64,000 nucleotides of DNA, taken from assembly GCF_040954835.1 (NCBI RefSeq), contig NC_090711.1, positions 9,369,501 through 9,433,500 on the forward strand, read 5' to 3'. This document shows positions 5,421 through 57,939 of the stretch, piece after piece. Positions within the stretch are counted from its first letter, which is position 1. The number at the start of each line of letters is the position of its first letter. Below the pieces are notes generated by a model that was not told the origin of the DNA, ran no database searches, and was given only the letters and a program-made list of their open reading frames with translations. This DNA is from Lepisosteus oculatus. Taxonomy: Eukaryota; Chordata; Actinopteri; Semionotiformes; Lepisosteidae. A program made the position numbers and the translations under genes.

Positions 5421-6144
5421 AGCTCACATCCAATCACTCCTTATATAGCTTAACTGCTATGCTGTATTCTATGACGTGAAAATAAATCTGGGAATGTGGT
5501 ATATAGTGCAAGTAAACAGGATGGTTATTTTTTGTGAATCAAATGGAACCCTGTGCTGAAAGTGTGTTGTTAATAATATTCAACACTCTCATTGAAAAAG
5601 GTGCAAATTACATGTGGTATAAAATCCTTGGTTAGTTAGGACCCATGTGGATATGTATTTGTCTACAGATTGAATTAATAAAATTGAATCCATTGACCTT
5701 CTTGCATTAAATGTCAGTTTTACTGCCCTGCCAGCTTAGCATTAGCTTTCTCAGTTATACTAAGAAGGAGGAAGCTTCTGTAGTCTGATAAGAAGGTCAT
5801 GAATTAATAATAATTTCCATCCACTCATCTTGCATCACAACAGACACTAGGAACTATTTTTACTTCAAGTCATTGACAGCATTTTCAGCTGGGAATAATT
5901 ATAGGGGCGAAGTCGAGAGCTGCTTTCTAACTGATTTACCCGTTTTTCACCAAAACTATGAAAAGAGAAGAAATGGCTGGAAAAGCAGTGGAATGAAATT
6001 CACATTAATGTGAGCCCATTCTTCATCCTCTTCCCACATAACCGTGGATTATACTGAAGAATAAATATCTTTGAAAGAAAAAAAAACATTTGCACATCTG
6101 TTACAAAAAAACTAACATTGCTTCTTTGCTTTTGTGTTTCGCAG

Positions 6145-23967: not shown

Positions 23968-26900
23968 CTGGGGAAACAGCGACACGGCGTTTCAGCTCTC
24001 CCTCTCCCTCACGAGAGCACGGTGACCCGCGCACACCACGTTCCACGGGGGTAGAGTCTGACAGTCACTTCATCCCCGTCGCGTCCTCGCCTCGCAAAAG
24101 AGAACCTCCGTCACACGAGCACCATGCGGCCCTCACGAAGACACTGCATCCATTCTGCTGCGGGAATGCTGTTCCTCCCCTCCAGAGGGCTGGCAGGTGA
24201 GGTGCCAAGTTTCCATCAGTTACTACAAGCAGTGTATAGCAAATAAACACTCCTGCCCAGTCTGTCACTCCCAGACCTCCCCCTGACTTGGTCTCTTGTA
24301 CACAGTAATCAGTGTATCAGCAAGCCCGCGTCACGCTTACTGACAATCACCACGCTCGATACTTCACCTTAATTTATTGCTAACAAGGACTTGACTACGC
24401 TGCCTGGGGGTTCTGTCTGAGGTGGCCTAGTCCAGCCTTCAACAAACCGATGGTAAAAAAAAATCTCTCCTCTCTCACTTAGGAGGTGATCTAGTGCCGA
24501 GGCAACAGTGCGCTGTCAAGTGAGTGAACCGTGGTCAGTGGTCAGTCATGAAGGGTCAAATAATCAAAACGACGCCACAAAACGTTCCGTCAATTTCCAA
24601 ATGATATATTCTTAGATTGTTCTTAGTTTTCCTAAAAACATGCTGTACATGGACAGGTAAGTTTCTCTTGCTGCTCAGCGTGTTCAGTGACCAGCCAGCT
24701 GCAATGGATGTGTTTCAGGCCTGCACGCTCACCTTTCTGCCTCTTCCCCATCGCCATGGCAGCGCCGATGCTGGTTGCCAAGGGCAGGAGGCTGGCACTC
24801 CACACAGACAATGTGGCCCTCACGGAGGTACCGCATCCAGTATGTGTGGGGCCCAGTGGTGTACTGACAGCCAGCAGTGAGGGACATCAGCTGGAACTCC
24901 ACACAGTACCTTCGGTGGAAGAGAGTTAATGATACCTTTAGTGAGGCACTCTCAGTGTCCTGTTTACCCCTTACACAAAGGGTTGTGAGAGTGTGGAACA
25001 AGCTACAGTTTCTTAAATTAACTTGATTTGTAGTGTATTAAAGTCTTCAAAAGTATTAGTATCAATCAACCCCTATATTGACATTCCTATTTTTAAATGT
25101 TTTCAAAATGCTCAGTTGCGTTGCTTTGATTTCAGATATATTGAATGTACAAAATCATGTGCATTAGACATTCAGCATTAAAAGATAAGAAAAATTACAT
25201 TGGGAAAAGGCATCTGAGGTCCATTTTGCTCAGCTATATTACATTTCACATAATTCTTTATTTAACCATTTACATCAATTCAGGACAAAGTCTTATTTTC
25301 AATGTCTTGCTATTGGTGAGTCCTATAAATGGTTTGGCACTGTTAGTAGGCAAGGAAAGAGACAATTGTAAGTATCCAGCTTTCATGTCGTGAGTCTGTG
25401 TAATTTAGGAATGAATTATCTCATTGTCTTGGGTGGAAGCTTTTTTCTGAGGTCAGTAGTTGAAGAAACCCACCCAGTGATGTCCTTGCTGCTAGCCAAG
25501 TCTCTCTTCTTCCTGGCTTTCCCAAAACCACCCGTGGTGATTAATGCAGGAACTGGGGATGATCAATAAAACAGGTAATTAAAATCTTACTTGCGGGTTT
25601 CTGGTGGCACGGGAGGTTAATTACAAGAGATGGGTTGCCAGATCTGACTAAAGGCAGAAGTACATGAAATAATGGAGAGGAGAATATTATTCTCTTGATC
25701 CAGTTACAATTGTAAACAGTTGTGTGTGTTGGGGGATGCAGGCTTGACTGCAAACATATTTTTTTCTCAGACCAATGACCAATGAGTGGAAGGGAAAATA
25801 ACAGATTTTGAAAAATACAGTACAAGAAATATAATGTATTGTTGAAACGTTTGGTATTTTTACACATTAAACTACAACTGCCACATCCTTAAATGTTAAG
25901 ATACCGTATTTTTGCAGCAAGAATTTCTGACTTTATGGTGTTGCAGTCTGAATGACATCACTTACATCCATTAGATTTTCTAACTGCTTTATGCAATACA
26001 GGGTCGCAGGGCAGCCAAAACCTATCCCAGCAAGCACTGGGCAAGAGGCTGGATAGACCCTGGATGGGATGCCAGTCCATCACAGGGCACACGCAGACAC
26101 ACACAGATACAAACAAACACAGACACGCACAAACTCATACCAAGACCTGTTTCCCCGCAAGCCAATTAACCCACTAGTATGTCTTTGGACTGTGGGAGGG
26201 AACCGGAGTACCTGAAGGAAACCCACGTGGACACAGGAAGAACATACAGACTCCACACATACAGACAGTTCTGGAATTGAACCCAAGGTCCCAGCACTGC
26301 GAGACCACAATGCTAACCAACAGTTTCTGGAAAAACGCAAGCCAGAGACACTTCTACCCTGACCACGGAGGTGGATGAATGTGCCATCAGAGCGACAACA
26401 GTGCCAAAGACACAGCTCTGCTGCAGGAATGTAATCAGTCATCTTCATAGCTTAATAGTTCGATGGCTAAAAAGAGTGTATAATCCCTGCTCCCCTAGTC
26501 ATGTACTTAACTTTTGACTTTTAACTTTCTTTTAAACCTATAGCAAGTGTTGACGGAAGCCTCACTCAAGGACGGGAGACACTCTCTGTGGGGAGGCCAG
26601 TAGTCCACACAGCCGGCGCGCTCCTGGAGAGGAGGACACGGCACCCCGCCGTTCCGCGGCTCCCGGACCACGCGCCTCATCCGCACGCGGTAGGTGACCT
26701 GGCAGGCCTCGGCGCAGCCTGACCACACACTCCACTCGCCGACCGCGCAGGAAGCAGCTAAAACAGGGGGAGGACGAAGGAAATCAGTGCCGTCGCTGGC
26801 CACACCGCCACCTTCCAGGCTGATGTCAGAAGATCAACAAGTCCGTGGTCTAGGCTTTCTCCCTCTGGGCCAGAATTCCCAAAACAAGGCCCCGGAAACC

Positions 26901-27636
26901 ACATAATAGGGGGTGCCATCTTTCAGATGAGACATTAGCCACAAAGTCCTACTGTAGCTACTTGATCACTGAAGATGTCATGGCACTGATTATTCTTTAC
27001 TTATTCTGGGAACATATCCCTAAGGATATTTGGTGTATTTGCGGCAAGAATATTGAATGTGTATTTTGATATACTATTGGGAGACACAATGTGGGCCAGA
27101 TTCCAAACAATTGGTAATAGGTACAGTATGTCTAGTTAGGTGGCTAAGTTATGGTATAATACTCCAGAAGAAAATAACTCTTTAACTATAGTTTTGGAGT
27201 AATGAAAACAAAGATATGAGTACCCACTTATGAAGCAGGGTGTTTCTTTCCAGGTGCTCTCTGAGTGCAGCACCTCACCCAAGGGTACAACATCACTGTC
27301 CTACTCATAAACTCTCACTTACTGCCAAGTCCAGAGCCCTGACCACTAGTCCACAGTGCTGTCTTCCAGTATCTCCAGTCATGTTATGGGAATTAAAGTT
27401 TTTATGGCATCACCTGACAGCATTAGGGGTCTAACCTCTGTGTTCTGGCTAAAGTCCAGCTCTGAATCTGGCTTAATTCAATTTCCCAAATAGTTTAATT
27501 ACAGAATTGCTCACATCTCTGTCTTCAATAATATGTCACTAAATATGCTTGTAGGTGGATTGCTAATTGATGGTGAATGCAATCAGCACACCTGCAAAGT
27601 ACCAGAGTACTGTGTGAAGAAAATACAAGTAAATAC

Positions 27637-27691
<55 letters not shown>

Positions 27692-28433
27692 GTGTTGTTG
27701 TTCACTCGTTTTGGTTTTTCAGTCTTCCAACTCTGCACCATCTGTGTGGAGTTTGCGTGGTATCTTTGTGGCTGCTTGGCTTTTCCACTCACAGAGAAAT
27801 TGATGTCTCTATATTGCCTCTAATACCCGCCTTGTGCCAATTATCTGCAGGGTTAGGCTGTACTGGACCACTGCAGTCCTGTACTGTACCAAGCAGTTCT
27901 TGAAAATGAGTAGATGGACTCGAGTTGTGACAATGAGTAAATAGGCACACGCTTATTGTGTTTACTGCAACACTGTATTTAGTTCTTCTCCGACTCAACA
28001 CTGCCTGCAAGGACTGTTCAAACATTGATGCAAAGCGGAGAGTGCAGAGCAAAGAGAAGCGAAATGAATATGAAACACCCCCCAAAGAAAATAGCCTCTT
28101 TAGTAGCGAAAACACTTGCTTCCATACTTTTGAACTATAGCCTTCATTTTATAGATACATATATGTCTACTTTTTCTTTCCGTGCCTCTCCCGGCACATT
28201 ACATTACCTGGGCAGGCTTGCTGGTAGTCGTGGCAGCAGTCCAGGGCTGATGTACACGCCTGGTCACAGTAGCAGCTCCCGTACGACCTGTCGGGTCTCC
28301 ATCCCATACTGACGCAGGAGGGGTCCCTGCCGGTACAGCACAAGCCGGAGTCCACACACCCTCCTTCGCAGCTGGGGCTCTGTAGCCACAGCTCAGCGGC
28401 GCAAAGCATGAACGCTAACTCTCGGAATGCCAT
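23850..28433 (-). CDS. sbspon-like: SBSPON-family secreted protein (somatomedin B + TSP1 domains), complete five-exon gene
   Basis: Coding exons in transcript order are 28433-28208, 26757-26566, 25552-25474, 24909-24733 and 23967-23850. All junctions are GT-AG and phases agree, giving 792 nt and 263 aa, against 264 aa for human SBSPON as I remember it. Domains: signal peptide (about residues 1-24), somatomedin B domain (Cys-rich, ending CDQACTSALDCCHDYQQACP), one thrombospondin type-1 repeat (GEWSVWSGCAEAC.. to ERAGC), a basic linker (PALITTGGF), then the conserved C-terminus with YCVEF, YLREGHIVCVECQPPA and CSCPTVHSFLFI before TGA. The product is probably an extracellular-matrix protein; its exact role is not established. 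The start used is ATG at 28431-28433; an in-frame TTG lies three codons upstream. Human SBSPON lies beside KCNB2/STAU2, whereas this gene lies between kcnb1 and stau1, so I infer an ohnolog rather than the direct orthologue. It converges with kcnb1 and diverges from zfas1. Confidence 0.9.
24733..24909 (-). CDS. sbspon-like: SBSPON-like exon 4
   Basis: Acceptor CGAAG, then G completing a Gly codon. It encodes YCVEFQLMSLTAGC and YLREGHIVCVECQPPA to CHGDGEEAE. Donor GTGAGC is at 24732-24727. Length 177 nt. Confidence 0.9.
25474..25552 (-). CDS. sbspon-like: SBSPON-like exon 3 (short linker exon)
   Basis: A 79-nt exon with acceptor CCCCAG and donor GTGGGT. It encodes (I)PALITTGGFGKARKKRD to DITG, matching the position of the PAFITT segment in human SBSPON. 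Its length (1 modulo 3) is what the flanking exon phases need. Confidence 0.8.
25975..26320 (-). repeat. SINE-like repeat family B, copy 3 (fullest)
   Basis: Lies in intron 2 of the SBSPON-like gene. The order is 'actgctttatgcaatacagg', 'cctatcccagcaagcactgg', 'gatgccagtccatcacaggg', a CA-rich stretch, 'gtatgtctttggactgtggg', 'ggaagaacatacagactcca' and 'ccagcactgcgagaccac'. It is oriented opposite to the copies at 1025 and 61765. Confidence 0.7.
26566..26757 (-). CDS. sbspon-like: SBSPON-like exon 2 (thrombospondin type-1 repeat)
   Basis: 192 nt with acceptor TTTTAG and donor GTGAGG at 26565-26560. It encodes ASCAVGEWSVWSGCAEAC to GGVPCPPLQERAGCVDYW, i.e. the WxxW and Cys pattern of a TSP1 repeat. 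Confidence 0.92.
26905..27000 (+). repeat. dispersed repeat family D, 5' fragment
   Basis: 'gtgccatctttcagatgaga' begins this fragment in intron 1 of the SBSPON-like gene, and 'aaagtcctac' and 'atcactgaagatgtcatggc' follow. The same start precedes the fuller copy at 57940-58290. Confidence 0.5.
27640..27690. repeat. (ATT)n microsatellite
   Basis: About 17 perfect ATT units in intron 1 of the SBSPON-like gene. The poly-Leu, poly-Ile and poly-Asn ORFs across it are artefacts of the repeat. Confidence 0.95.
28208..28433 (-). CDS. sbspon-like: SBSPON-like exon 1 (signal peptide + somatomedin B)
   Basis: The ATG at 28431-28433 opens MAFRELAFMLCAAELWL, a plausible signal peptide. The somatomedin B domain follows with GLCCTGRDPSC and GSCYCDQAC. 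The exon ends ..ACP plus one base at donor GTAATG (28207-28202). Confidence 0.92.
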
Positions 28434-31400
28434 TTCTGTCAACGAATCTAAATGACAAAAATAAACCTTAAACCCAAAAAAAAAAATGAAGAAACAAAGT
28501 CAAGTTACACTTGAGACAGTGTAGCCAGGGCTACCTCTTAGTTTACTTGCGCTCTTAGTACCTGAAGCACCTGTGTTACTTTGTTTTGACCACTATTTCC
28601 TTTGAACATACTGTAAGTATTCATTTTGCTCTCTGTTAACGCTGACATTTTTTGTGCATCGCTTATTTTACCGAAACACAGAGATCAGTTTTATTCCGAT
28701 GGCTCCTCTGAAACGCAACATAATATCTCTGTTAAAACAAGTGTCCGGACAGCACTGTCCACCTGTGTCTGAAAATCAGAACAGCTAGAGCAAATCCGAC
28801 TCCCTCATTAAAATTGGAAAAGTGGACGTCAGCAAATATGTTACCTTCTGTCTTAGAGCGCTGACAAAGAATTGTACTGTAACTGGTGAGTAATATGGTG
28901 AGTTAACCTTTCGCACTCGAACTGTAAATTACAACCCCAACACGTTTAAAGAGACAGCACCTCTTCCAGTTTCGCTGTGTAAGTAACGTTTGCTTGGCGT
29001 TTATAAGGAGAAAGGTTGTCCGCTTCTTTGCCACACTAATAATATAATATTACCACGCTGCATCTTAGGCGTTGCTCCGGACAGTAAAAATAAGGCTGGT
29101 GATGTGATTATTGTGGTATACATTACATTATATACAATATACATTAGGGGTGAGATGTCTGATTGTCTTAAAAAATACAGAGCCGTTTTTGTTCAATTGT
29201 AACAATCCTGCTAGGATGTCACAGCGTTTTCAGAACCGGTTAAAAAAACAACAGATAATATTGTTACAAATGGATGGAGAAAACCAGAAAATGACAGAGC
29301 AGATAAATCCATTAAAAAATTAATCATCATCATAATTTCCAACTTGTAAATGACTTTTCCCAAGAATACATCTGAGAGATTTGTATAGTTAGAGGCACAC
29401 AGTTCTCTGACACAGCTTTGGTGAAAAGAATAGTAATTCAGACCCTCTGGGTTAAACAAACATTAACAGTGACAATACACACACTAAGCTACAGTACATA
29501 CAACATAAACATACAACACAACAAGTTACCCTGTGTACAAACTTTCAAATGAGATGTGACAGAGGCCTAACATCCGAATCACCCAGGAGAACCCCAGACT
29601 GTTAACAGCTACTCAAACTCTTATATAACGCCTTCAGGGGCCAAAAGAAGAGCAAGCTGCCTTCTAAACCAAACAGAATGCAACCTGCAGTTAAATCTGT
29701 CTCTCTTCAAACCTGGATGCCACAAAATGAACGGACCCACAACCAGGAGAGGCCGTTTTTTAACCAAGGGATTCTGTAGGTGGGAAATCAGTTCTGTAAT
29801 ATAACAGGCTCATTTAACAAGGGTCAAAGATTGAGCTCCAATCCGGTCTTCCTGGGTGATCACAAGGAGCTCTCTTTCTCACCCATCTCTCTCTTGCCTC
29901 GTGTCTTCCTCCCATCTTCTTCTGTACCTGCCTCTTTCACAGTGTCTTTCTGGACTGTTAATTGACACTTCATTTTCTACCCTGAACTTAATTAGCTATG
30001 GAAAACCAAGGTATATTTCACAGTTGCTTTGATCACCGAATCTGAGACCATTACATCTCAGCAAACTTCCCCATTGCGTTGAACGCTGGACATGCTGACA
30101 CTATCCAGGTCTCCCCATTGTATCGCTTCATAACAAGACCTCATTAAGCAATGTAATAGTTTAAGAGCAAGCAATTGAAATCTCATGCAGGCCTAAAATC
30201 AGCAGGCACCAAGACTGGAGCTCTGCATTGTCAGAGTTGGAAAACCTTGAGATTCTCTTACAAGAAAGGATTTGCAGACTATCACATTAAACCAAACCCA
30301 CAGACTGGCACCAGACATGCTAATCTTCCTACACATTACCGATAAAGAGTTTAACCTTGACATCCCTGTTTACAAGACTGATGTTGATGTAAGTTTCAGA
30401 CATAACATTTGAAGTTTGATTGGATTTCTTCCTGGTTCTTAAACGTGTTTCCATGCAGTCAGAGACTGGAGGTCCCTTGTGAATCAATTTTAAAAAAAAA
30501 ATTAAAAACTTACTGCAAACCTGTGACAGAATGCTGGTTTTATTCCTAAAAGAATAAATTTAACAACATTTCTATACTGAGCTGATTGCAGTGATATGGT
30601 CACCTGTATACTGCATATCCTCATGTATAAAGGTTTTGACTTTAAGGTTTTAAACCAACTGTATTAAACAGCAATTGGAGGATTTTTTTCTTTCCAGTGT
30701 GTAGAAATATAATATTCTTCTCCTTTAATTGTCTGAAAGTGGGAGATTGTTTCAGGACTCCATTACTGGAGATGTGAGTCTATGTTTTTATGGATCAGCC
30801 CGGTTTTTAAGTTTTGTTGTTTTATGCTGGCAGTCTGATTTGCAGTTTCTGAGCAAGCATGTGAAAAGAGTGGATTAATTTAATTCCAGAAATCGGCATT
30901 CATGCAGCAATAATGATAGTGGGAGAGAGTGATAAAATACCAGTTATAACACTTGATTTCTCCAAATCAAGCATTTTGCATGATATTTCCATACCTCAAC
31001 CTATTCATATATAATATTCATATAATCACTGCCTGTTCTTAAGAAGGACCATAACACAGAGCCCTTTCAGTATAAACTTGTATTATTGCTGAAGCATAAA
31101 TGTATGTCCTTATTGTTGCATACGATAATCACTATTAACAGCCTCCACAAAATATGTGGGAAATGATGAAACAAATGTGAATTAAATGTGTTAATTCATG
31201 GCTGGTATTAGGAATATTGATCTTAATAATGATCAGTCCAATCCATCATTAAAAAATTAAACAGTGTTACTGGAAATGAAAATTATATGATCAAAACACC
31301 ATTCTTTTAAGGAGTGCATTGAATGGATCACAGCCTGAGAATACATAAAAAACATTAAATATAATAGATATGCATCATGCTGATAAAGCCTTCTGGGTTT

Positions 31401-34963: not shown

Positions 34964-36334
34964 CCTCTTGGCGATCATAGATCTTTCTTTCGTTCGTGGT
35001 CTTCGGTGAGAGAAGGTAGTGTGGCCTGCTTTATCCATTTGCCATCATTCTTTAACACGTCATGTGATTTTACTCGATGGGTTGTGCGGGAAAGCGAAGT
35101 CTTGCAAGATATGCTTAAAGTTACTTTTTTACATTTTGAGGCATTCTGCACGTGGTGTTGTACTTCTGGGAAGCATCTATTAATGACTTGTATGAATGTA
35201 TCGTTTTTTGTGCGGTAATGGCGTTGCATGTTTTATTTGCTTACAGCAGCAGGGTTAATAATAACGAGTTTGTTGAAAATGTAAAATCTGAACACGTGCG
35301 CAGTTCGGGTGTTGTAAACTGGCTTTAGTTTTGGGTCGTCTTTAGCATGAAAATTGACTTCTTATAAAACAATTGTTTGACACCACCCGGATCTCCTGTT
35401 TGTGTTGGTTTTAATAGTTGTGCTCCCCATTTGTCTTTTCTTCTAGCGCTTCTTGGTGGTGTGACATGGTCACACTTCAGACATCAACCAGCGAGGGTAA
35501 GATTAATTAAACGTTTTAACTGGAATTTGAAATTGTGCCTCTCTTGTCTAGGGGGGGATTTGTCAGTTTCCTACTTCTACGGTTCGGTACCACGTGGAAT
35601 TTAAGCGCCTAGTGCGTTTGAAATGTCTGCTTACATTTCTGGCCGATCGCCTCGGGTCAGGACTGTTTTCTTACCGTATCATCACTGAAAAAGGACAACC
35701 CCCCGAGTGAATATACTTGCAACGTAGGAATGTTAATTGTAAACGTATAAATAACGTTATAGTAGCATCAGGGGGATACAATTGACATGTTTCTTTCAAG
35801 AGCCCCTTCATCGCATGTACACAGTTTAACAAGTAGAAAAATTGGCTGTTTCTCAATTAAATGTTCTTTAACTAAATTAAATGCATCAGACGTGCGCAAA
35901 TAAAAAAAATACCCCGCTAATCCGCAAGAGCAATTTCTGATAATTGTATAGGCTCCCAGACCATCGAAAGTTTATTTCCTTGAAGAGGTCATATAAATGA
36001 ACGTCAGTCTAAGGCCTCGTTTTTGTGTCGGTAGTACTGGGCAGTTGTCTATGAACGTTGCGAAACGCAGCTCATAGCATGTTTTTGGAAGATGTAAATG
36101 CCGGTTGAAGAACTGCAGCGCTGTTTTTAAATTTCCTGGTTAGAAAACAAGGGCATTTAAAACCATAGTGAAAGTAAAATGCACACACTGTGTAAAATCT
36201 CCAATTTATATAACAAAATAGACTAAAGTGACCTATTACTATGCTGTACTGTGAATGGGCAGCCTTTGTCCTTCATATCTTTTTAGTGTATAATATGATT
36301 AAAATCCAAGGTTCATGTTATATAAATATTGCAA

Positions 36335-36580
36335 TGATTGGTTCTGTGGCTAAAGATCTGCATCTGTAGCTGGGAGGTTGCTGGTTTGTATCCTGAAGAA
36401 TTCTACTCTGTTGGGCTCAGGCAAGGCCCCTAACCCCAACTGCTCCAGGGGTGCCGTGTAAATGGCTGACCCTGCGCTCTGACCCCAAGCTTCTCTCCCT
36501 GTCTTTGGAGTATGTAAATAAAGACACATTTGGAATACAAGACATTGTATATGGCCAGTAAAGTGATCTTATCTAAAATG
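36335..36580 (+). repeat. tRNA-derived SINE
   Basis: The head has degenerate A-box and B-box-like segments (near 36350 and 36386, 'ggttgctggtttgtatcc'). The body contains 'caaggcccctaaccccaact', 'gctccaggggtgccgtg' and 'ggctgaccctgcgctctgac'. The tail is 'ttgtatatggccagtaaagt'. This is a common fish SINE layout. It lies in intron 2 of the zfas1-like gene. Confidence 0.75.
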
Positions 36581-37203
36581 GCAGATATGGTCTGTAACTA
36601 GATTCTGGTGGTAAACTTCAAACGTGGGTACTATTGGAAGTCGTATAAGAATGTGCTTACTTAAGGAGGTTACCTGGAGTAGCAATGACTGGGGATTTCT
36701 TACTTTCAGCCTTGTTACTCTTGTTGCATTATCCTCATCATTCTCATACTTCAACAAAAGCATGTACAAATAGTTGTGATCTACACATGTATATGTCCCT
36801 TACTCAGTATTTCCAATGAATTTAAGGTATCCAGAGTAAAGATTTAGTACTATAGTATTATTACTCTGACTTTCTTAGTCAGTCAGATAGTTGTAGTGGT
36901 AAGCTTTTCTCTGTAAAATAGCCCCTGTTCCACCTCGTCAGACTTGTTTTATTTTTTTTAAAGTACTTTTTGTGTAATACGGTTTGATGTTGCCCTGCAG
37001 GGTTCCCTTTAGCCTTGAGGTGTGTAAGAGATCTGAGTGCAACATGACTGCGAACAGAAGTGGCAGTGGCTTTGGTCATATTCTAAGTAAGTGGTTTTTT
37101 TTTCTCCAAAATTACTTGTCTTCACAAATGCGAGATCATCCTATACAGACTACTTTAGACACCCACGAGTTGGTACAGTCCTTTCCATTTGTGTGCTTGC
37201 TGG

Positions 37204-37288
37204 TTCAAGTATGATGACTAAGCTTTTTTCCCCAGCAGATCGATAGTGTTGACTCTTTTGCACTGTAAGCCAAATGTTCTGATTGACC
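37204..37288 (+). ncRNA. snord12: C/D-box snoRNA, SNORD12 family, copy 1
   Basis: C box ATGATGA 37211-37217, D box CTGA 37279-37282. The guide CTTTTTTCCCC comes just before a D'-like CAGA at 37236-37239. Flanks TCAA and TTGA can form the terminal stem. It lies in intron 3. The second half differs most from the other copies. Confidence 0.85.
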
Positions 37289-38095
37289 AGCAAAAAAACA
37301 CATCTGCGGAATTCTGGTGAGTGATTCCTCCCAGTCTGATCTGTCTTTTCTGGTTTCCCGCAGTGACGTGAGGAGTTCTGCTACCAGCACGCGTGTCTCA
37401 AGGTATGTATAAAGAAGGGAGAATAATTTGATTGTTCTTAAAAACCAAGATGGTTTAGCTTCTTTTCACATGAGGAGGGGTAGCAGGGTAGCTAGCCTTG
37501 GTGTGATGGAGTAACTTGATGTGAATCGGGTCTAGCTTAATGTTCCTTTAACTTCCCTGTACTTTTTTGTCTGGCTTTGCCTCAGTGCTTTATATTATAG
37601 TCTGATTCACAACTTAAAAAAAAAACTGCAAAAAAGTGGTGGGACAAACATGCAGTCTTAAATTTAACATGTCCCCATTCTGTGTTCCATTGTAAATTGA
37701 TAAAAGTGTCACCTTTGTTTTAGGTGTCACTCATTACTAAAATACAGCTTGAGCACCAGTTACTGACTGTCAGCTGCTTCAAGTGTTTTAGATGCCTTGA
37801 GTAAATTTGTAAAGGCACGCCAATAGATCTGTTGACTAGTTCTTGAACCATTTTCACAATAGACTTCAGCTTCTAAAACTAAATGGATCAAGTCATTATT
37901 GCAAAGGTTGTTTCCTCAGAATACTATCTGTACTATTGGCAAGACTTACAGATGATGTACAGTGAGAAATTGGATCTAGTGTACTTACTGTTAACTTGCA
38001 CATTTTATCAGTTATTCAGATCTTCATTCCTGATAGCTGCCTTGGCACTTGAGGGGAATTTTCTTAGATTTACTGGCTGTCTGATGATTTTGGGT

Positions 38096-38184
38096 CTGGT
38101 GAATATGATGACTATCTTTTTTCCCCAGCAGATCGACTTTGTTGACTGTCTGCTATTTTAAGCCAAATTTGTCTGATTCACCAG
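38096..38184 (+). ncRNA. snord12: C/D-box snoRNA, SNORD12 family, copy 2
   Basis: C box ATGATGA 38105-38111, D box CTGA 38173-38176, and a perfect 8-bp terminal stem CTGGTGAA / TTCACCAG. It carries the same CTTTTTTCCCC guide and AGCAGATCGAC block as the other copies. It lies in intron 4. Confidence 0.9.
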
Positions 38185-38406
38185 CTTAAACAATGAACAC
38201 TTTGCAAAGTGCTTTTTCCCATTTCTGAAGAAACTGCTTCTTTCTTTGCAGGTCTGTGTGCTGGAGATATGGTGGTACCATGGAGATACCAGGGGTTGTA
38301 TGCAGATACACAATCACTGTTGGCACTGGTGGAATCGTAATTTTCTGCACAGTTGGTGTAAGTATTTTAGATTGTTGCTAAAATTTGTTTGTGCAGAAGT
38401 AGAAGG

Positions 38407-38496
38407 CTGGTGTCTGTGATGACTGATCTTTTTTCCCCAGCAGATCGACAGTGATGACTGCTTGCTATTTTAAAGCCAACTTAACTGATGCACCAG
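38407..38496 (+). ncRNA. snord12: C/D-box snoRNA, SNORD12 family, copy 3
   Basis: C box GTGATGA 38416-38422, a perfect internal C' box GTGATGA 38451-38457, D box CTGA 38485-38488. Terminal stem CTGGTG / CACCAG. Guide CTTTTTTCCCC as in the other copies. It lies in intron 5. Confidence 0.9.
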
Positions 38497-38713
38497 TACA
38501 TTTTAGAAAGACCTGTACATGAAGTGCTGTTTTAAATGGCTAAAGAGGATGCTCTTTTTGCAGGGGACGAGTGATGGTGTCAATCTCAAGGGTGAGACTG
38601 CTGCAGAATTTGGAATGGTATCAGTGAAGCGTGTGGTGCTAATGTAAGTAAACTAATGTTCTTGTTTAAAATGCTCATTGGGGAGTAGAGTCGAGCTGGT
38701 TTGGGAGACTGCA

Positions 38714-38809
38714 GCTGCTGTGAATGATGACTGATCTTTTTTCCCCAGCAGATCGACTGTGTTGACTGCTGAATGCATTAAAGCCAAACATGTCTGACAC
38801 ATTAGCAGC
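38714..38809 (+). ncRNA. snord12: C/D-box snoRNA, SNORD12 family, copy 4
   Basis: C box ATGATGA 38724-38730, D box CTGA 38794-38797. Terminal stem GCTGCT / AGCAGC. Guide CTTTTTTCCCC followed by AGCAGATCGACTG. It lies in intron 6. Confidence 0.9.
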
Positions 38810-39578
38810 AGAATAATGCATTGTGTAACTTGTGTAGTTCATTAAATTTTGTTGCTGGTAATGGTTAACATTTCCAACTTTGAGAGGTCTGTGTCGCAGG
38901 AACCAAGTGCCTTAACACTGCAGGATTTGTTGGATATTTTACGTGAGGTTCAAGCCTCATGTATAGTTAAATTATGGAAGTTAGTCTTTGGAAGCAAGGA
39001 GCACTTAACTGCAGTTTTTTTACAATGTAATCTTTTGTCTTGTTTCAGGATCAAGAGGGGGAGTGAAGTGCCAAGATGAGTGGTTATTGAGGACTTGCTT
39101 CCTTTTGGACCTTGTTTTTGTTAATGCGAGCCAGTGATCAATGTAATTTTAAATTGTTGTAACATCTCTGAAAGTAGAGGAGCAAAATGAAGTACTTAAA
39201 TACTACAATGTAACCTGCCTATAATCCATGTCAGAGAATATTTTCACCTACGACTATGAATACTATTCCATCAATTGTTCCACACTGGTATATTACATTT
39301 TGATGTTTCATAGATGCTATGTGAGCATAAATTCTCAGTTAATAGATTCTATACTCCTTTGATATGCAGTACTTTCTACTATGCCATATTGCCTCTTCTG
39401 AGTGAAGTATATTCTTAATTAAAAAGGGTAGCTTTTACAGAACTGTTCTAGTATTTTCTTTTCTACATTTATTTCCATTGTCTAGGAATCCTCATTTCCC
39501 AATATGCGAATAAACAATTGTTTAAAGTTTTTTTTTTTCTGTTATTACTTACAGACAATCCAAGCACACATTAATATA

Positions 39579-39791
39579 CAGTGCCTTGCGAAAGTATTCG
39601 GCCCCCTTGAACTTTTCAACCTTTTGCCACATTTCAGGCTTCAAACATAAAGATATAAATTTTTTATTTTATGTGAAGAATCACCAACAAGTGGGACACA
39701 ATTGTGAAGTGGAACGACATCTATTGGATTTTTGAAACTTTTTTAACTAATAAAAAAATGAAAAGTGGGGCGTGCAAAATTATTCGGCCCC
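39579..39791 (+). repeat. left terminal inverted repeat of Tc1-like element
   Basis: 213 bp, beginning CAGTGCCTTGCGAAAGTATT and ending at ATTCGGCCCC. It is mirrored by the right repeat. Long TIRs of about 200 bp fit the IR/DR class of vertebrate Tc1 elements. Confidence 0.95.
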
Positions 39792-39969
39792 TTTACTTTC
39801 AGTGCAGCAAACTCACTCCAGAAGTTCAGCGAGGATCTCTGAATGATCCAATGTTGTCCTAAATGACTGATGGTGATAAATAGAATCCACCTGTGTGTAA
39901 TCAAGTCTCTGTATAAATGCACCTGCTCTGTGATAGTCTCAAGGTTCTGTTGAAAGCGCAGAGAGCATC

Positions 39970-40989
39970 ATGAAGACCAAGGAACACACCAGGCAGGTCC
40001 GTAATACTGTTGTGGAGAAGTTTAAAGCCGGATTTGGATACAAAAAGATTTCCCAAGCTTCAAACATCCCAAGGAGCACTGTGCAAGCGATCATCTTGAA
40101 ATGGAAGGAGTATCAGACCACTGCAAATCTACCAAGACCTGGCCGTCCCTCTAAACTTTCAGCTCAGACAAGGAGAAGACTGATCAGAGATGCAGCCAAG
40201 AGGCCCATGATCACTCTGGATGAACTGCAGAGAACTACAGCTGAGGTGGGAGAGTCTGTCCATAGGACAACAATCAGTCTTACACTGCACAAATCTGGCC
40301 TTTATGGAAGAGTGGCAAGAAGAAAGCCATTTCTCAAAGATGTCCATAAAAAGTCTCGTCTAAAGTTTGCCACAAGCCACCTGGGAGACACCCCAAACAT
40401 GTGGAAGAAGGTGCTCTGGTCAGATGAAACCAAAATCGAACTTTTTGGCCACAATGCAAAATGATATGTTTTGCGTAAAAGCAACACAGCTCATCACCCT
40501 CAACACACCATCCCCACTGTCAAACATGGTGGTGGCAGCATCATGGTTTGGGCCTGCTTTTCTTCAGCAGGGACAGGGAAGATGGTTAAAATTGAGGGGA
40601 AGATGGATGCAGCCACATACAGGACCATTCTGGATGAAAACCTGTTGGAGTCTGCAAAAGACCTGAAACTGGGACGGAGATTTATCTTCCAACAAGACAA
40701 TGATCCCAAACATACAGCAAAATCTACAAAGGAATGGTTCACAAATAAACGTATCCAGGTGTTTGAATGGCCAAGTCAAAGTCCAGACCTGAATCCAATC
40801 GAGAATCTGTGGAAAGAGCTGAAAACTGCTGTTCACAAACGCTCTCCATCCAACCTCACTGAGCTCGAGCTGTTTTGCAAGGAAGAATGGGCAAGAATTT
40901 CAGTCTCTCGATGTGCAAAACTGATAGAGACATACCCCAAGCGACTTGCAGCTGTAATCGCAGCAAAAGGTGGCTCTACAAAGTATTAA
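39970..40989 (+). pseudogene. Tc1-like transposase (DD34E) with one internal stop
   Basis: The frame from ATG 39970 to TAA at 40987-40989 spans 340 codons, the usual length for Tc1-like transposases. The N-terminus has the paired-type helix-turn-helix DNA-binding region (KISQASNIPRSTVQAI) and a GRPSK hook. The catalytic residues lie in VLWSDETK, QQDNDPKHTA and SPDLNPIENLW (DD34E). An in-frame TGA at 40462-40464, directly after GHNAK, separates two open halves in the same frame. Relatives have Arg at this place, so CGA to TGA at a CpG is the likely change. No frameshift is seen. The copy should not make full-length protein. Confidence 0.95.
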
Positions 40990-42991: not shown

Positions 42992-45900
42992 CTAGGGGGA
43001 AAAATGTAGACATTAGACGGGCGGAAAGCAACTTTTATCCATCAATATGAACTCAAAGCGTTGAAGAAAAAAATGCATTATTTCTTGTAGGAAATCTCAG
43101 CCTTTTCAAATGAAGCTTAATTAAAAATTGATATATCTTTTTTCTTTGAAACAATCCAAGCCTTTTTTGGGGGGGATTACAAGATCATCAACCACCCGGC
43201 CATTTTCTAACTGCTTTATTAATACGGGGTTGCAGGAGAGCCAGACAAGCGACAGACACAAGGCAGGGTACACCCTGGACAGGACACGAGTCTATCACAG
43301 GTCACACACATCAGGTAAAATTTTCCTAGAAGCCAATTAACCTACCAGTCTTTGGACAGTGGGAGGAAACCCATGCAAATACAGGAAGAACATACAAACT
43401 CCACATAGACAGTTCCCCAGGAATTGAATCCAGGGCCCCAGAACTGCACAGCAGCAATACTAAACATTGTGCCACCATGCTTCCCATTAATCCACCTTAG
43501 CTTTTCAATACTACCCTCATCCAGGTAAAGGAAAGGAGTAGACCACATTCTTGTCCTCTGGAAGATGTCATTGTCCTATCCTTTCACATCTTAAGTAGCT
43601 GCATCCAACTGTTAACGTCCTAGGCCAGGGCAACTCAATAGGTGGAGTTTTCAGTTTGCTCCGACGCAGTACTTTATTGTGAAATAGTTAAAGCACGGGA
43701 TGCAGCAGCACTGCTCACTGGAGTGTACTGGGGGGGCCACAGGTTGAGTAGCTCTGCCCTGGGCTCGCAGCTTTAAGGCACAACTCGAGGGCTAAAAGTG
43801 AAGAGTGGTGTCTCTACTAATCCCAGTGTTGCCATGTACTGCTGCTGGGTGAACCCTTGGCACTAGAAATGTGGTTTCTAGTTTCAACTTTCTAAAGATT
43901 CTTTCCCACAAGTGCACATTAATAAATGAAGGGAATTCCTGAAACGGAGGTTGACATTTGTGAAACTGGTATGAATGAACCCATTGTTAATGTGTTGGGC
44001 AGGATGGTTCTTTTATATTTATTCATGCACATTCCAGGCTTTAAAATACAGCACAAAGGTCAAACTCAACTCACACTGAAATTGGTCCATTTCCAGTTCT
44101 GTCATTAGATTGTTGGTCCAGCTCTGACAGTAACTTCAATATATTCAGGGCAGCCTGGGAATAATAAGGATGAATTATTATTCAATAGAAGGAGCTTATT
44201 AAGTCTATTTAGAAATGTTCGGACTTTTAACACATTTCTGCAGTGCCCTTTTATAATAAGGGTTTGCAATCTGTCTCTTCCTCTTCTGCATCCTGCAAAA
44301 GCATTTATCTGCTCTCCAACACTCTCCAATACCAAAGTGGGATTACAGAATGTACCCCAAAAAATTCTGAAAAATGTCCTATTATTTCAGAATTATGATT
44401 TATGACTACATTATGATTTCTTTAATACATCAAATACTCTGCTCAAATAGCACCTCTAACTCCAGACTCTCCCAGAGTACAAAATGAGAGACTTAAGTAA
44501 TAGTTGCAAAAAAGGTTTTTCTAAACGTTTTACTGTGGAAAGGAGCAGTCAAGAAAGAGCTCACATAACCTGAGAAGATACTGGAGGAAGTACAGACTGG
44601 ACAGAAGAGATCACAACGTCCACAACAGCCATCACTGATGGACATACATTGCCAAGACTCAAGGTCAAACAAATTGTGTGATAAGTCGCTCTTTTGAGAT
44701 GACCCTTTCTATATTGCTAATGAAGACAGAGACTCACCATGTCATGACAAGATTCCACATCTTTTCCTATTCCATGGCTGATAAGGGGGGGCTGAGAGGA
44801 GCAGTTTATCAGAGAGACAAACTCGTTCTTATTGTTTTTGGGAAAGTCTTTATATTCCACCTGTAAAACGAGGCAAATATTTTAGGATTTCACAAACTCC
44901 GTGACTCGGATGGCACTATACATCAAAGCAAGCAAAGAATCGAGCACGTCCAACAACACACCTTGCTAATTCAGAGATCCCCTAGATAATCAATAAGCAA
45001 GTCCCTTTAGAAACCAAATTGACCAACGATGGACTAGAGAAATAAAATAAAGTTGCTTTCGATTCTAACACATGAAGATCCGGGGGTTGCTGCCCTCAGT
45101 GGCGCCCCATCAATACCTGGAGTCCCTGCACGGTGGACAAGTAGTCCAGCTGCTCGGAGGGCCGGGTGAGGGGGCCATGAGGAAGGTGTCCCAGGCTGCT
45201 GCTGCCTTTTAGAATGGTCTCGGCTGTCGGGGAGGTGCCACCATACAGCAGCTCCCTGGCGATCATAGCTGTGACGGTGGCCTTGGCAGGGTTGATAGGG
45301 GAACGGTTGTAGTCTTTGGCGTGATGTCCTTGGCTGGCACCCACAGCCTGGGCCACCTCTGGTACCATGGGCAGGATCCCGGCTGGCAGCTGCTGGTGGC
45401 TCAGGAAGGGCATCCGGAACTCGTCCTCCCTGCTCCCTAGAGAGAAAATGCCAAAAGGTTTAAGAGTTAGTGCATAAAAACGAAGTGAGGAGGCCAGACG
45501 CCTTCAAGAACAAAGCTGGGTAGGCGACATGGGTGACTTTCAGGCAGCCAAGAATCTTCCTGCATTACAGTGTCTCCTAGTTTCACTCTTGAATGCAATT
45601 CCTCGTTACTGCCACTTCAAACTTCAGATCCTTCATTTCATCAGTTGTTGGTCTAGGCAAACAACTGGTGTCCGAATCCACAAAAGTCTCACTAAGCAGA
45701 ATGGGCAATCAGAGCACCTCCTGTTTGCAACCCTTCGTATGTTATTAGAACAAGGAGAGCAAACTATATATAAACATCTACATGGAAATTTCATTTGAAA
45801 TAACTCATTTAAAAATCACTCACCTATTCCTGCATCTTCCACTACACTGGGTTCAAAGAAGGTCACTTTTCTTCCTTCTCCAGCCTTCTTCGCCTGCACC

Positions 45901-48900
45901 TACAAAAAGCAGACACCTTGCATAGGAGAGGGCAGCTTCAGCAGCAACCAAGCCAACAGCTCACCACCAACTCATCTCAGATACATTAAAGACTCTTTGA
46001 GACATCTGACAACAAAACTACCTTGGAAAAAAAGCAGTCTATAACATTTTGTGTGGATAACTGAACAATTTGGCAGAAAAAGCATATATTGAGGACTGCA
46101 ATAAAATCATAACTTGTGGCAAAAATAAGATTAATGACTGCACTGGCTTAGTCATTTCATTTCATGTGGAAGACCAAATTGATCTAAAACATCCTAGCAC
46201 TCAATTTACCTGGCTCCTCAAAAACTCACACATCTTCCTTCTTAAATATCTTTGCAATTGTGCTAAGCTAATGTTGTGAATCAGCTTAGTCTGTGATCTA
46301 CACCTCAGCTTCAGTTATTCTTCTTTGACCTGCGATCTGTGCAGCGTTACTTCATAACTGCTGATGAGCCCGCATGGTCCACAAAAGACTATACCAATAC
46401 TAGGCTTCAGAGAATCTGAGAAGTGACAGAAGACATTAGTGTAACAATGCATCTGTCACTTAACGCCACATTGGACAGCTGCGGCCCCCCTCTAAAGATT
46501 CACCTTTTCATCAGATTTCAGAGCAGGCTTGGGGGGCTGTGGCTGAGGCACTTTAAATCCCATTAGCTCCAGCATCTTCTCCGCTGCATTGCGTTTAGCT
46601 ACCTTCTTACTGGGACCCATGCCTTCCGAACACTGGTTGCCAACTTTGACCTGGAAGAAAAAACAAAACTGTCATGTTTTAACTAATAAATCAACGACAA
46701 AAAGCCAACGGTCCCAGCTTAGATTTGTCGGGACCTTCTGATATCTGTCACTGAGGGGGAAAAAAAAACCTAATTTGTTCTTTCCTTTACACTTTAAGTT
46801 TGAAATGCCAGCAGGCCAGGTAATGGTGAAATCACAAGGCTTTACTAAAGTGAAGAAGTGAAGCAGGTGGGAACACACCTGCATGACGAACTCCCTGCGA
46901 CGTGGGAGGCCCCTCTCTGTCACCAGGCTGTACTCCGGCTCCTTCTCTTTCTTGGCCTGCTGGATCTGAGCTAGTCTGCTGATCGGGTTCATTCCCTGGC
47001 CATACTCTGGGCTCGTTTGAAGCTGTGAATGCAGGGAAGAAGAGCAATGAACCTTGAGCACCAAGTCCCAGCTTATACTCAGTCAAGCACCATGGTTGTG
47101 TAAACATCTACAATAACGGATGTTGCCTTTGAGCTAAACAGCAAACAGTGCAGTTTCAATCCAAACTGAATTACCCATCCCAACCGCTGAGACATAATAA
47201 ACTGGTGCTCAGAGAACTCTGCTACAAACACGTTGGTCACAGAGGTCTTAAATAAGTGAGGCAAAACAAATGAGTGTAATTGGTGCAAAAGGCTACGTTT
47301 TTTCACACAACTACTGCTGTTTAAATGTACTGTTCACAGGCTGGATCCAAACGCACACAAAAAAAGACTATCTGACCACACAACACTTCTGAGAGGTTAC
47401 ATCAAGATGTCTTCGATTCTCTTAGGCCCGTGAAAGACCAGTGGTGACTCACGCTAAAACTACTGTCCAAAGCTGCATTGGGAAAAGGAATGCAATCAAT
47501 TCTAACCCTAAACTTCTACAACGGTACAGTATATAACAGCTGCGCAAAGCCTCCTCACTTTGACTATAGACTTTGTTTTCTTTTTGATGCGCGGCTGCAC
47601 TTTCTCCACTGTCGGCAGCGGGGGCAGTTTCTTCAGCTCCTCCAGCACAGCAGTGGCAGCGTTCTTCTTGGCTATCTTTTTGCTCTTGCCATCTCCCTCC
47701 CCCGAGAATTCACCCACGGTAACTTTGATGACGAAGCTCTTCATGTGTGGGGGCCCCGTCTCCTTAACCACCTGAGTGTGGGAGGGAGAAAGGGAAAGGA
47801 AGAATCGAGCTCTGCGTTTAACTTTATTTCTACTGGAACTGACCTTTACAAACATTCCTAAGATGAGTGACAAGCAACAATCCAGGCTGACAGGCTTGTT
47901 GCAGCCGTCAAATTATGTGCAGGCCTTGCAAAACTGCTGCTGTGCAATACATTGCAAAAGCAACAAGATTTAAAAACACATGGACACAGATAAGCTGTTT
48001 AACCATAAAAAACGAAGGAAGGCTCCAAGCTGCCGTGTTACAAAAGATGACATTTAAAACATTTCCAACATGCTTGAGATAACTGCGATGCAGTCCTACA
48101 GCTCATTACATAGCACACGTAGAATGGTAGAGATTAAAATCAAGAATGATTCGTTTGATCATGCTCCATACCTCAAAGTTCACAGGCATGTTCCTCTTCA
48201 GTGCAATTTCAAATACTTGGCTGATTTCGGATTTGTTAAGATTTTCTTCGGATTGTTCTCCATTTACCTGCAAGGCACAACACTCCACTGTTTGTGTTTA
48301 AAGACTAAATTCAATATTAATCATATTAATGATTAATATTGACATTTAGGTTTATTGGTGATCGATAAACATGCAATTAACACACACGGAAATAACTATA
48401 GCAGCTCAAAAGGAAATCCTGTGCAAAAACTTTACATTTTAATACTTGTATGTCTTCAAATGAGTGTTGTGAGAATGACGAGTTAGCATCAAAACCATCA
48501 TAAAATTAAAAAAAGATATGATAACTATAGGCATCAAATCAAAAGATAGCATTTAAGATGTGTGCTGCCTCAGAGAGAGGGTTTTGCGGTGGACAGACTC
48601 ACCTCCAGCCTCTTCTCCAGAAGGGGCTCTTTCTGCAGGACCTTGAGTGCTTTGGCAGCAGCGTCGTGTTTAGCAGCTTGCCTGGTCCTGCCTTTGCCAT
48701 GGAACTGCTGGCCCCCAATAGACAGCTCCATGTGATACATCACCGGCCCCACAGGAGGGAATGGATAATAGTACCTGCAACATCAGGACGTCCCAGAATC
48801 CAGAGCCCAGCACAATCTTTAACGTGTACACTAGAGCACAGATCTTCAACACTGTCAGCTCCTCTTAAGGCTATTTATAGAAAAATCAGTTTCAATCTTT

Positions 48901-51900
48901 TAACCAATCAAGCCTTCTAAGCCATAAAAAGTTACTTAGACTGACATTTCAAATTTTAATACTCATAAAATTGGTCCTTCTAAGAAAACCATTCCGGTAA
49001 TCGGATTGATCTTTTCTTGCCTCCTTACTGTTAACTCTGTGCAAGAAAAGGTGAAAGCTAAGGGCTACTTTTAAGCAATCTTTTTAAAGAATACATGTTG
49101 TTTATTTCACGTATGCATGGTTTAGAGACAAGTCTATGCTTCAGAGTCATGTTTGTGTTCACTATTTCAATTTAATATGACTGTGCTGCCTAATTTTCAC
49201 TTCTTCAAGCATGAATTGGTGTAAATATTACTCCAAACCTTTAGGAGTTTTCTGACAAAAGAAAATTTCAGGTACAAGCAGGACACAGGAATAGATATTT
49301 GGGGAGACAAAATTGTATAACTTGGCTAAAACCCAAAAATCAGGACCCTTGTGTTCCCCTGCAACATGTCATTTTCAATTATGAATCGCAGCATTTCGTG
49401 AGCTAGCCCATCTGGTCAGCACTGACAGACTGGTTTAGGATACCTTCTTCTCTGGCCACAGGATTATGATTAATAACTGTTAGATGAGTCACTTCTAAAG
49501 ATGTTCAAGTTTTCAGGAATGCCCCATGAAGCCAAACGTACATTCAGCCCTCACTGATAGAAAGCCTTGAGTTGAAAAATTATGATTTGATTGTTTTTTT
49601 CTGATGATGCACCCTTGTACAACACATCAGATAAAGATGACAAGCTTTGTAGGGGGTCACATTGATTCTATTAAGAGAGATTTTAAGTTTCACTCACCCA
49701 ACAACTTTAATGAAATATAATTTTATTTCACTTTATATTTTAATTCTTAATTACATCTATTTTTGCCCTAAAATTCAAATATGGTAAGACGGTTTCAGAA
49801 ATCCAGAATGTTTTAAGATACTATTACAGTATTTTAAATTATGTAAACTATCCACATAATAAATGTGGGCAACATTATCCTTTTGTAATATGATTATCCA
49901 GCTCTAGCTTTGATATGGGTAATAACATTTTACATGGTTCCAAAACAGATTATTTTACAAAGGACTCATGTCTTAAAGCACTCTGGAATACTGTAGTCTG
50001 CACCTGTTTCTGGTTAGCTTTTTTGTACACTCAACCAGAATTCAAGTGCATGTTCATAAGTGTCCATTACACTGTATGGGGCTGATTACAGAAAACAATG
50101 CTATTTGGCTAGCACAACTGGCAGAAAAGTGCCTCAAGTTCAGAGGAACTTCACTTGCAATATTTTCTCTCACTGGAAAGATTTCTGGACTTATTCAGAA
50201 AAAAGATGTTGAATGATATGACTTTTACATTCACAACAGTGCCTCTTTAAAACCATTGTGATAAGACCTTTTTGGTTTTCTAAGAGCATATTATGAAACT
50301 CGACATGTTTGATAACGCAGTGTAGCAGGTGGTTCATTACACAAATACTAAAGAACAGTGTACTGGTGAAAAGAATACAGGCAAAACATTTTTTGATTTT
50401 GACACTGGTTTAACTTGCGGCATCAGGCAGCTGTTCTATACTTTACTGTAAAACCTTCTCAGTAAACAAGCATACAGCCCAACGTTAAGCCAAAAAGGGT
50501 AAGTGTGCTTGTATTCACCACTTTAACAAAGAGTCACGAATGGACAGTAAAAGGGAGTTCTCCAAGGAACACACAACAAGAAAGATCTTTGCACAAGAAG
50601 TTGTAGGTGTCTGCCGGTGGTTAAGACCCAAGCTCTGGACAACTTCAGGAAGTGTCAGGAAATGTTAGATTCACTTACATAATCAACTACCAAATGGATA
50701 AAACGGGTGAAATATCTCTCTTTTGCAGGCTCTCTTAGTTCTGTCCAGGACACTGAATCTATTTTGAGTGGGACCTTAGCAACCAGAGAGCTATGTAAAC
50801 CCCGCTTTCTCATATGTACATACCTTTATGTAACACAGAACACGTTTGAGAACAGATAGAAGGATTTCACTAAGATTTACAGGAATCCCCTTAATTGTGA
50901 CAACTACTATATATAAGTTACACTTTACAAGCAAAAGTCTACTTACAGTAAGGGACTTAAATGTTTGTAAATGCACCTACCTTGGATAGGGGCCAGGAGG
51001 TCTGACATTGTAGTTGAAGTTGGGCCTCATTCCAGGATAGGGATCAATAGGTTTATAAATTGGTTTCTTTCCCAGTTTCATACAAAGTGCATTTAGCTCC
51101 ACAGTGTGGGTTATACTGTCTGTAAAAAATACATTGAAAAGAATTGACAAAATGCTATGAAAACAAGCGTTAAAATTCATTTGGGTGGCACTCATTTGAA
51201 CGTGCTTTATTCCCTCACCAGCTCGGCAACACATGAAATTCAACCTGTAACTCAGACATCTCACCAGGCTTTTTCCTGCTCTACAAATCCATCAGATTTC
51301 AATGCTATTTTTGTATTCACAAAGTCCTGACAAAACTGAAGGAATGCCTTCAGAGTGAATTCTACTCTATCATAACGGTAATGACAGTAGTGATGTAAGC
51401 CCACACAGGTGAGTGCACTGCACTTGGTTCTGGAAAAACAAGAAAGGACAATTTTGACTCCTGTATTTACCATCTGAAAAAATAATAATAAAATATTATT
51501 TTTCTCATATGCACATATAACAGGAAAGTAAGGGGATTTTTTTTTTAAATAAAAATCTACGCCCAGACTTCAGGAATGAGACACAAACCTAGATTGGCAC
51601 TGGACATCCATTATTACACAGACTCAAGAAACACATAGGTGAGTAAATTCTACTTAACAACATGCCTTTAACTGGCTGCACTTCATTAATATCTGCATCT
51701 TGATAATATCCAACACTACCAGCAACATCCTAGGTAGGGAGAAACTTAATATGGACATGAGTATACAGACTGGATTATTACTTGTCAATGCATGAAGAAA
51801 GAAGAGTTATTAATTCAGCTTTGGATACACATTTTTCCAAAGATGGATTTTGGCTTCTGTAGAAATAAATTTGGAAGATTTAAGTATTTGGCAAGTTATT

Positions 51901-57523: not shown

Positions 57524-57939
57524 ACTGACGTCCGGTTCCAAGACTTTCACAGCACGCAGCACAGGGGTTCAGCGCAAGTTTGGAGTAATCCAGCAAAGCT
57601 CTTCCTGGGAAAAATAATTCAAAAGCTTGTGTACTGTGGGATGCTTACTCAGATAAGATTATATCCAAAAACGATAGCCATATGGTACGGGGGACATCTT
57701 GCTCTTTTTTGAGGTTAGGTAATGTTTGGGTTTTAAAAATGAATCCAGTCTAATTCTTTTTAAAGAAATGTAGTTAGCAGAACTAGAAACTAAACTGGTC
57801 GACAGCACAGAGTAAACACATCATACATACAAACAGGGTTTAATTACATCTAAAGTCGCCTTTACATATCACACATGCAAGTGACTAATTTGTAAGCTTT
57901 TTAGACTATACTGCAAAACAAAACAGCAAAGTCCTTCTT

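Follow-up and report, generated by a model that had tools for sequence, protein, structure and literature searches.

In a 64-kb window of the gar Lepisosteus oculatus (NCBI RefSeq assembly GCF_040954835.1, contig NC_090711.1, positions 9,369,501 to 9,433,500 of the forward strand; "window" here means the whole stretch of 64,000 nucleotides (nt) analysed), four similar elements lie close together, and a sequence-only reading had seen in them SNORD12-type box C/D small nucleolar RNAs (snoRNAs). We asked whether they are genuine members of that family, which rRNA position they might guide, and which gene carries them. As judged from sequence, the locus very likely represents a ZFAS1-type host that would release four intronic SNORD12 snoRNAs guiding 2′-O-methylation in domain V of 28S rRNA.

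The entire window was scanned with all Rfam families at their gathering scores, yielding five matches, four of which belong to RF00581, the family SNORD12/SNORD106, and lie on the plus strand (Table 1). With 61.4-71.5 bits, all four exceed the gathering threshold of 43; no fifth SNORD12 match at gathering score was found on either strand of the window, and a permissive Rfam scan of positions 35500-40500 returned 12 other matches, each below its own gathering score. The four elements proposed earlier are thus confirmed, at the level of sequence, as genuine SNORD12 snoRNA genes of a known and ordinary kind.

Aligned with one another, the copies show a mean column identity of 85%, and the common core to which the earlier reading had drawn attention, CTTTTTTCCCCAGCAGATCGA, is invariant in all of them, as are the C box, the D′ box, the CTGA D box and the guide, CUUUUUUCCCC. 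The C′ box reads UGUUGA in copies 1, 2 and 4 and UGAUGA in copy 3. A second motif, AAGCCAA, is kept before the D box in every copy, and the region separating the two varies. The copies are conserved, but their flanks (40 bases on each side) are dissimilar, with 6-15 of 40 positions identical in 12 ungapped comparisons, indicating that it is the snoRNA, and not the surrounding intron, that has been retained. In the terminal stem, 88.9% of 36 cells are paired (n = 4), compared with 21-50% in slid controls, and two of its nine pairs carry changes on both sides among these four sequences.

On a fragment of eukaryotic large-subunit (LSU) rRNA, CUUUUUUCCCC forms 11 pairs with GGGGAAAGAAG, including one G-U, with a computed energy of −17.5 kcal/mol; when this 364-nt fragment was shuffled 1000 times with dinucleotides preserved, 3 shuffles gave an equally good duplex. 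The fragment comes from a single contig of the viral collection (L001), the end of which is named LSU_rRNA_eukarya by Rfam, and which was the one contig matched there by the 32-base form of an exact 28S pattern; the 44-base form gave no match in that collection, nor did a domain I pattern or the SNORD12 core. The Rfam LSU_rRNA_eukarya consensus also holds the target segment, reading GcGGGGAAAGAAGACCCUgUUGAGCUUGACUCU, and the domain V pairing put forward earlier is thereby upheld. With CAGA as the D′ box, the D′+5 rule takes a C as the fifth upstream base, opposite the third G of GGGGAAAGAAG, which by our own alignment and numbering is presumably yeast G2395 and human 28S G3878; the guide would therefore select the position (Gm3878) named in the sequence-only reading. 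Human SNORD12, SNORD12B and SNORD12C are given the target 28S G3878 in PMC11971394, where they are also named orthologues of yeast snR190 and of S. pombe snR107, the latter guiding the equivalent methylation, Gm2483.

Four stretches came out of a scan of genome contigs: three belong to a single Prevotella contig, and one (L003) to a contig filed under the actinomycete Planomonospora. The two Prevotella stretches examined (L002 and L005) carry bacterial rRNA. L003 holds eukaryotic small-subunit, 5.8S and partial LSU rRNA genes, which suggests that the public Planomonospora assembly is contaminated; its LSU match covers model positions 24-358 only, and it was used for domain I alone. It lacks GGGGAAAGAAG, and the best guide duplex on it reaches −11.2 kcal/mol, as against −17.5 kcal/mol on L001.

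How the locus might operate can be outlined from the general pathway for intronic snoRNAs, with pairing and anatomy computed, and processing, expression and methylation inferred. The host pre-mRNA would be spliced, and its four introns would be debranched and trimmed by exonucleases, each leaving one box C/D small nucleolar ribonucleoprotein, presumably held together by the terminal stem. The guide upstream of D′ would then pair with its target at the root of 28S domain V, where fibrillarin would be expected to 2′-O-methylate the G that faces the D′+5 base of the guide. Having the same guide in four copies would most likely serve dosage.

Host exons were predicted from splice motifs alone, and delimit four introns (277, 849, 206 and 405 nt) that hold a single SNORD12 copy apiece, in keeping with the earlier proposal of one copy per successive intron. 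That each copy lies shortly before an exon, as had also been stated, is true of copies 1-3, whose spacing (66-72 nt) is typical of intronic C/D snoRNAs, but not of copy 4. Exon 1, the start of which is approximate, holds a CCCTTT tract, a candidate 5′ terminal oligopyrimidine (5′TOP) motif, so that the earlier description of a 5′TOP host finds a candidate tract and nothing beyond it. AATAAA occurs near 39509, within the predicted last exon. A 101-codon open frame (62 codons from the first ATG) spans all five predicted spliced exons (37002-39098); since 22 of 2000 shuffles match its full length and 77 of 2000 that of its ATG part, we did not take it as a gene, though it may be one.

Table 1. 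Predicted features of the SNORD12 host locus and Pfam domains of two neighbouring genes (window positions, for Pfam domains those of the open frame that contains the match; RF00581 E-values refer to the 64-kb scan)
Feature	Position	Strand	Basis	Details
Host exon 1, predicted	37002..37086	+	splice motif	ends in TCTAA, followed by gtaagt
SNORD12 copy 1, intron 1	37199..37291	+	RF00581, 61.4 bits, E 1e-10	C box 37212; guide 37223-37233; D′ CAGA 37236; D box 37279
Host exon 2, predicted	37364..37402	+	splice motif	72 nt past copy 1
SNORD12 copy 2, intron 2	38095..38185	+	RF00581, 71.5 bits, E 1.6e-13	C box 38106; guide 38116-38126; D′ 38129; D box 38173
Host exon 3, predicted	38252..38357	+	splice motif	66 nt past copy 2
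SNORD12 copy 3, intron 3	38406..38497	+	RF00581, 63.2 bits, E 3.3e-11	C box 38417; guide 38428-38438; D′ 38441; D box 38485
Host exon 4, predicted	38564..38643	+	splice motif	66 nt past copy 3
SNORD12 copy 4, intron 4	38714..38806	+	RF00581, 70.8 bits, E 2.6e-13	C box 38725; guide 38736-38746; D′ 38749; D box 38794
Host last exon, predicted	39049..39540	+	splice motif	242 nt past copy 4; 3′ end arbitrary
SBSPON_C	24732-25037	-	Pfam	
TSP1_spondin	26510-26833	-	Pfam	
Somatomedin_B	28170-28499	-	Pfam	
Staufen_C	45099-45503	-	Pfam, E 1.3e-20	
dsrm	47511-47912	-	Pfam	
dsrm	52508-52813	-	Pfam	
dsrm	54169-54516	-	Pfam	

The identity of the host is suggested by its neighbours. A 709-codon frame (exon 6058-8184, plus strand) aligns to Kv2.1 residues 185-858, through the last residue, in a comparison that did not include KCNB2, and was assigned to KCNB1; apart from it, no open reading frame (ORF) in the window exceeds 175 codons. 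Inside this coding exon, at 6709-6822 (plus strand), K_chan_RES (RF00485), an RNA-editing hairpin described in Kv1.1, matches with 85.4 bits, reflecting either a conserved hairpin or merely conserved coding sequence. Between KCNB1 and the snoRNA host lies an SBSPON-like gene (24732-28499, minus strand); human SBSPON is a chromosome 8 gene in the vicinity of KCNB2 and STAU2, so the gar gene may be a second copy kept since the genome duplications of early vertebrates. The host is closely followed, at about 39578-40989 (plus strand), by a Tc1/mariner-type element whose Sleeping Beauty-type helix-turn-helix and DDE_3 domains occupy two neighbouring frames with a single stop between them. Further on, a staufen gene with a Staufen_C and three dsrm matches extends over 45099-57568 on the minus strand. 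Pfam gave no match for its frames 50980-51291 and 57293-57568, which resemble STAU1 (one as an N-terminal exon like the first dsRNA-binding domain), and by this resemblance the gene is tentatively STAU1 rather than STAU2. Human 20q13.13 contains STAU1, DDX27, ZNFX1, ZFAS1 and KCNB1. Since the gar host is flanked by KCNB1 and a staufen gene, both located near ZFAS1 in human, it is very probably the ZFAS1 orthologue, and the analogy with ZFAS1 drawn earlier is strengthened by the same intron design and the KCNB1 neighbour.

Several observations weigh against this interpretation of the locus. The LSU partner used here is the L001 fragment together with the Rfam consensus, and not gar 28S; moreover, snR190 of budding yeast, with the same guide position, leaves G2395 unmethylated according to PMC8536666, so that pairing alone is no proof of methylation. 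The covariation score of the terminal stem is matched by 33 of 500 shuffles, and 197 of 500 contain as many two-sided pair changes, the four sequences making for weak statistics. Copy 4 departs from the usual spacing: the acceptor of exon 5 (39049) lies 242 nt beyond it, and a weaker candidate acceptor opening at 38900 would bring this distance to 93 nt. The window yielded no recognisable ZNFX1, the gene from which ZFAS1 takes its name: no Pfam domain assignable to ZNFX1 or DDX27 was found in 73 ORFs of at least 90 codons, a set in which shorter exons are missed. Gene order and orientation also differ from the human map. The ZFAS1-ZNFX1 pairing appears to be absent from the gar window; the overlap of human ZFAS1 with the ZNFX1 promoter (PMC4215690) is, however, a feature of the human locus that is not required for orthology. 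The lack of such domains, the altered order and the intervening SBSPON-like gene would also suit a host other than ZFAS1 that had acquired SNORD12 independently, and in chicken the host is named by an expressed sequence tag (EST) only (PMC2653536). Set against this are the flanking KCNB1 and staufen genes and the shared design of one snoRNA per intron, and we find a host other than ZFAS1 quite improbable.

Another explanation concerns what the snoRNAs do rather than where they reside: alone or additionally, they might serve early pre-60S particles as a placeholder during rRNA folding, with the guide shielding domain V and AAGCCAA contacting either domain I or another part of domain V. Yeast snR190 is described as such a placeholder in early 60S assembly (PMC8536666), and S. 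pombe snR107 methylates and also bears a second element, ASE2, needed for 60S production, while human ASE2 is called relatively small and its role left open in the same 2025 report (PMC11971394). At the position of AAGCCAA, however, the Rfam SNORD12 consensus is UuGCCAG. With the fungal-type domain I of L003, the gar motif forms a short pairing (−7.1 to −8.3 kcal/mol) that is strongest in copy 2 and comprises only 5 pairs in copies 3 and 4, and copies 1, 3 and 4 scored better elsewhere in the scanned stretch. On L001 it pairs around GAGUUUGGCU with −10.7 to −14.5 kcal/mol, a site equalled in 32, 16, 176 and 36 of 1000 shuffles for copies 1 to 4, respectively. Vertebrate rRNA differs at both of these partner sites. 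A chaperone role for gar SNORD12 is therefore possible, although not strongly supported, and we regard the placeholder as a tentative alternative or addition; that fish-type SNORD12 has kept both jobs of snR190/snR107, D′-guided methylation and an AAGCCAA placeholder, with four copies supplying a stoichiometric chaperone and not catalysis, strikes us as rather unlikely. It could also be argued that no more than one or two copies are functional and that decayed or differently aimed paralogues are among the four, in view of the lower scores of copies 1 and 3 (61.4 and 63.2 bits), the deviating C′ box of copy 3 and the variable region separating AAGCCAA from the D box. Yet the copies do not differ in guide, C box, D′ box or D box, every copy passes the gathering score, and chicken, too, is reported to have four (PMC2653536), making this reading very improbable.

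The number of copies invites comparison among vertebrates. Human ZFAS1 carries three SNORD12 genes (SNORD12, B and C) in consecutive introns (PMC4215690; PMC7243338; PMC11971394), the first two of these sources agreeing with the count of three quoted earlier, while chicken GGgCD57 is reported with four isoforms in introns 1-4 of one host, EST BU281079, in a paper that groups human HBII-99 with yeast snR190 as counterparts (PMC2653536). In the partly available literature pairing SNORD12 or ZFAS1 with zebrafish or teleosts, no fish SNORD12 copy number was met. As four copies are reported in chicken as well, four is not peculiar to the gar lineage, and the human three looks more like a loss; of the lineage-specific gain or loss proposed earlier, loss toward human is thus more probable than a gain in fish. 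Four copies are probably the ancestral state of bony vertebrates, with one lost toward human, although the species are few and independent gains are an alternative. The gar locus extends the four-copy arrangement of SNORD12 to a further vertebrate, in a host next to KCNB1, and hints that the antisense pairing of ZFAS1 with ZNFX1 is perhaps not necessary to the locus; the rest is routine annotation.

Among known systems, human ZFAS1 shares with the gar locus the Rfam family, the target, the placement of one snoRNA in each successive intron of a short host, the proximity of KCNB1 and, probably, that of STAU1. It differs in having three copies where gar has four, and gar differs in the lack of a recognised adjacent ZNFX1, in the SBSPON-like gene between KCNB1 and the host, and in gene order and orientation. 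Chicken GGgCD57, compared by its description in PMC2653536, resembles the gar cluster in its four copies in four consecutive introns, its D′-side guide and its HBII-99/snR190 counterparts, and differs in an antisense element of 12 nt, as opposed to 11 pairs in gar. The fungal relatives, snR190 of S. cerevisiae and snR107 of S. pombe, share a guide to the equivalent domain V G and a further element placed ahead of the D box; unlike the gar copies, they are encoded beside U14, and snR190 is reported to be non-methylating and snR107 has further meiotic roles.
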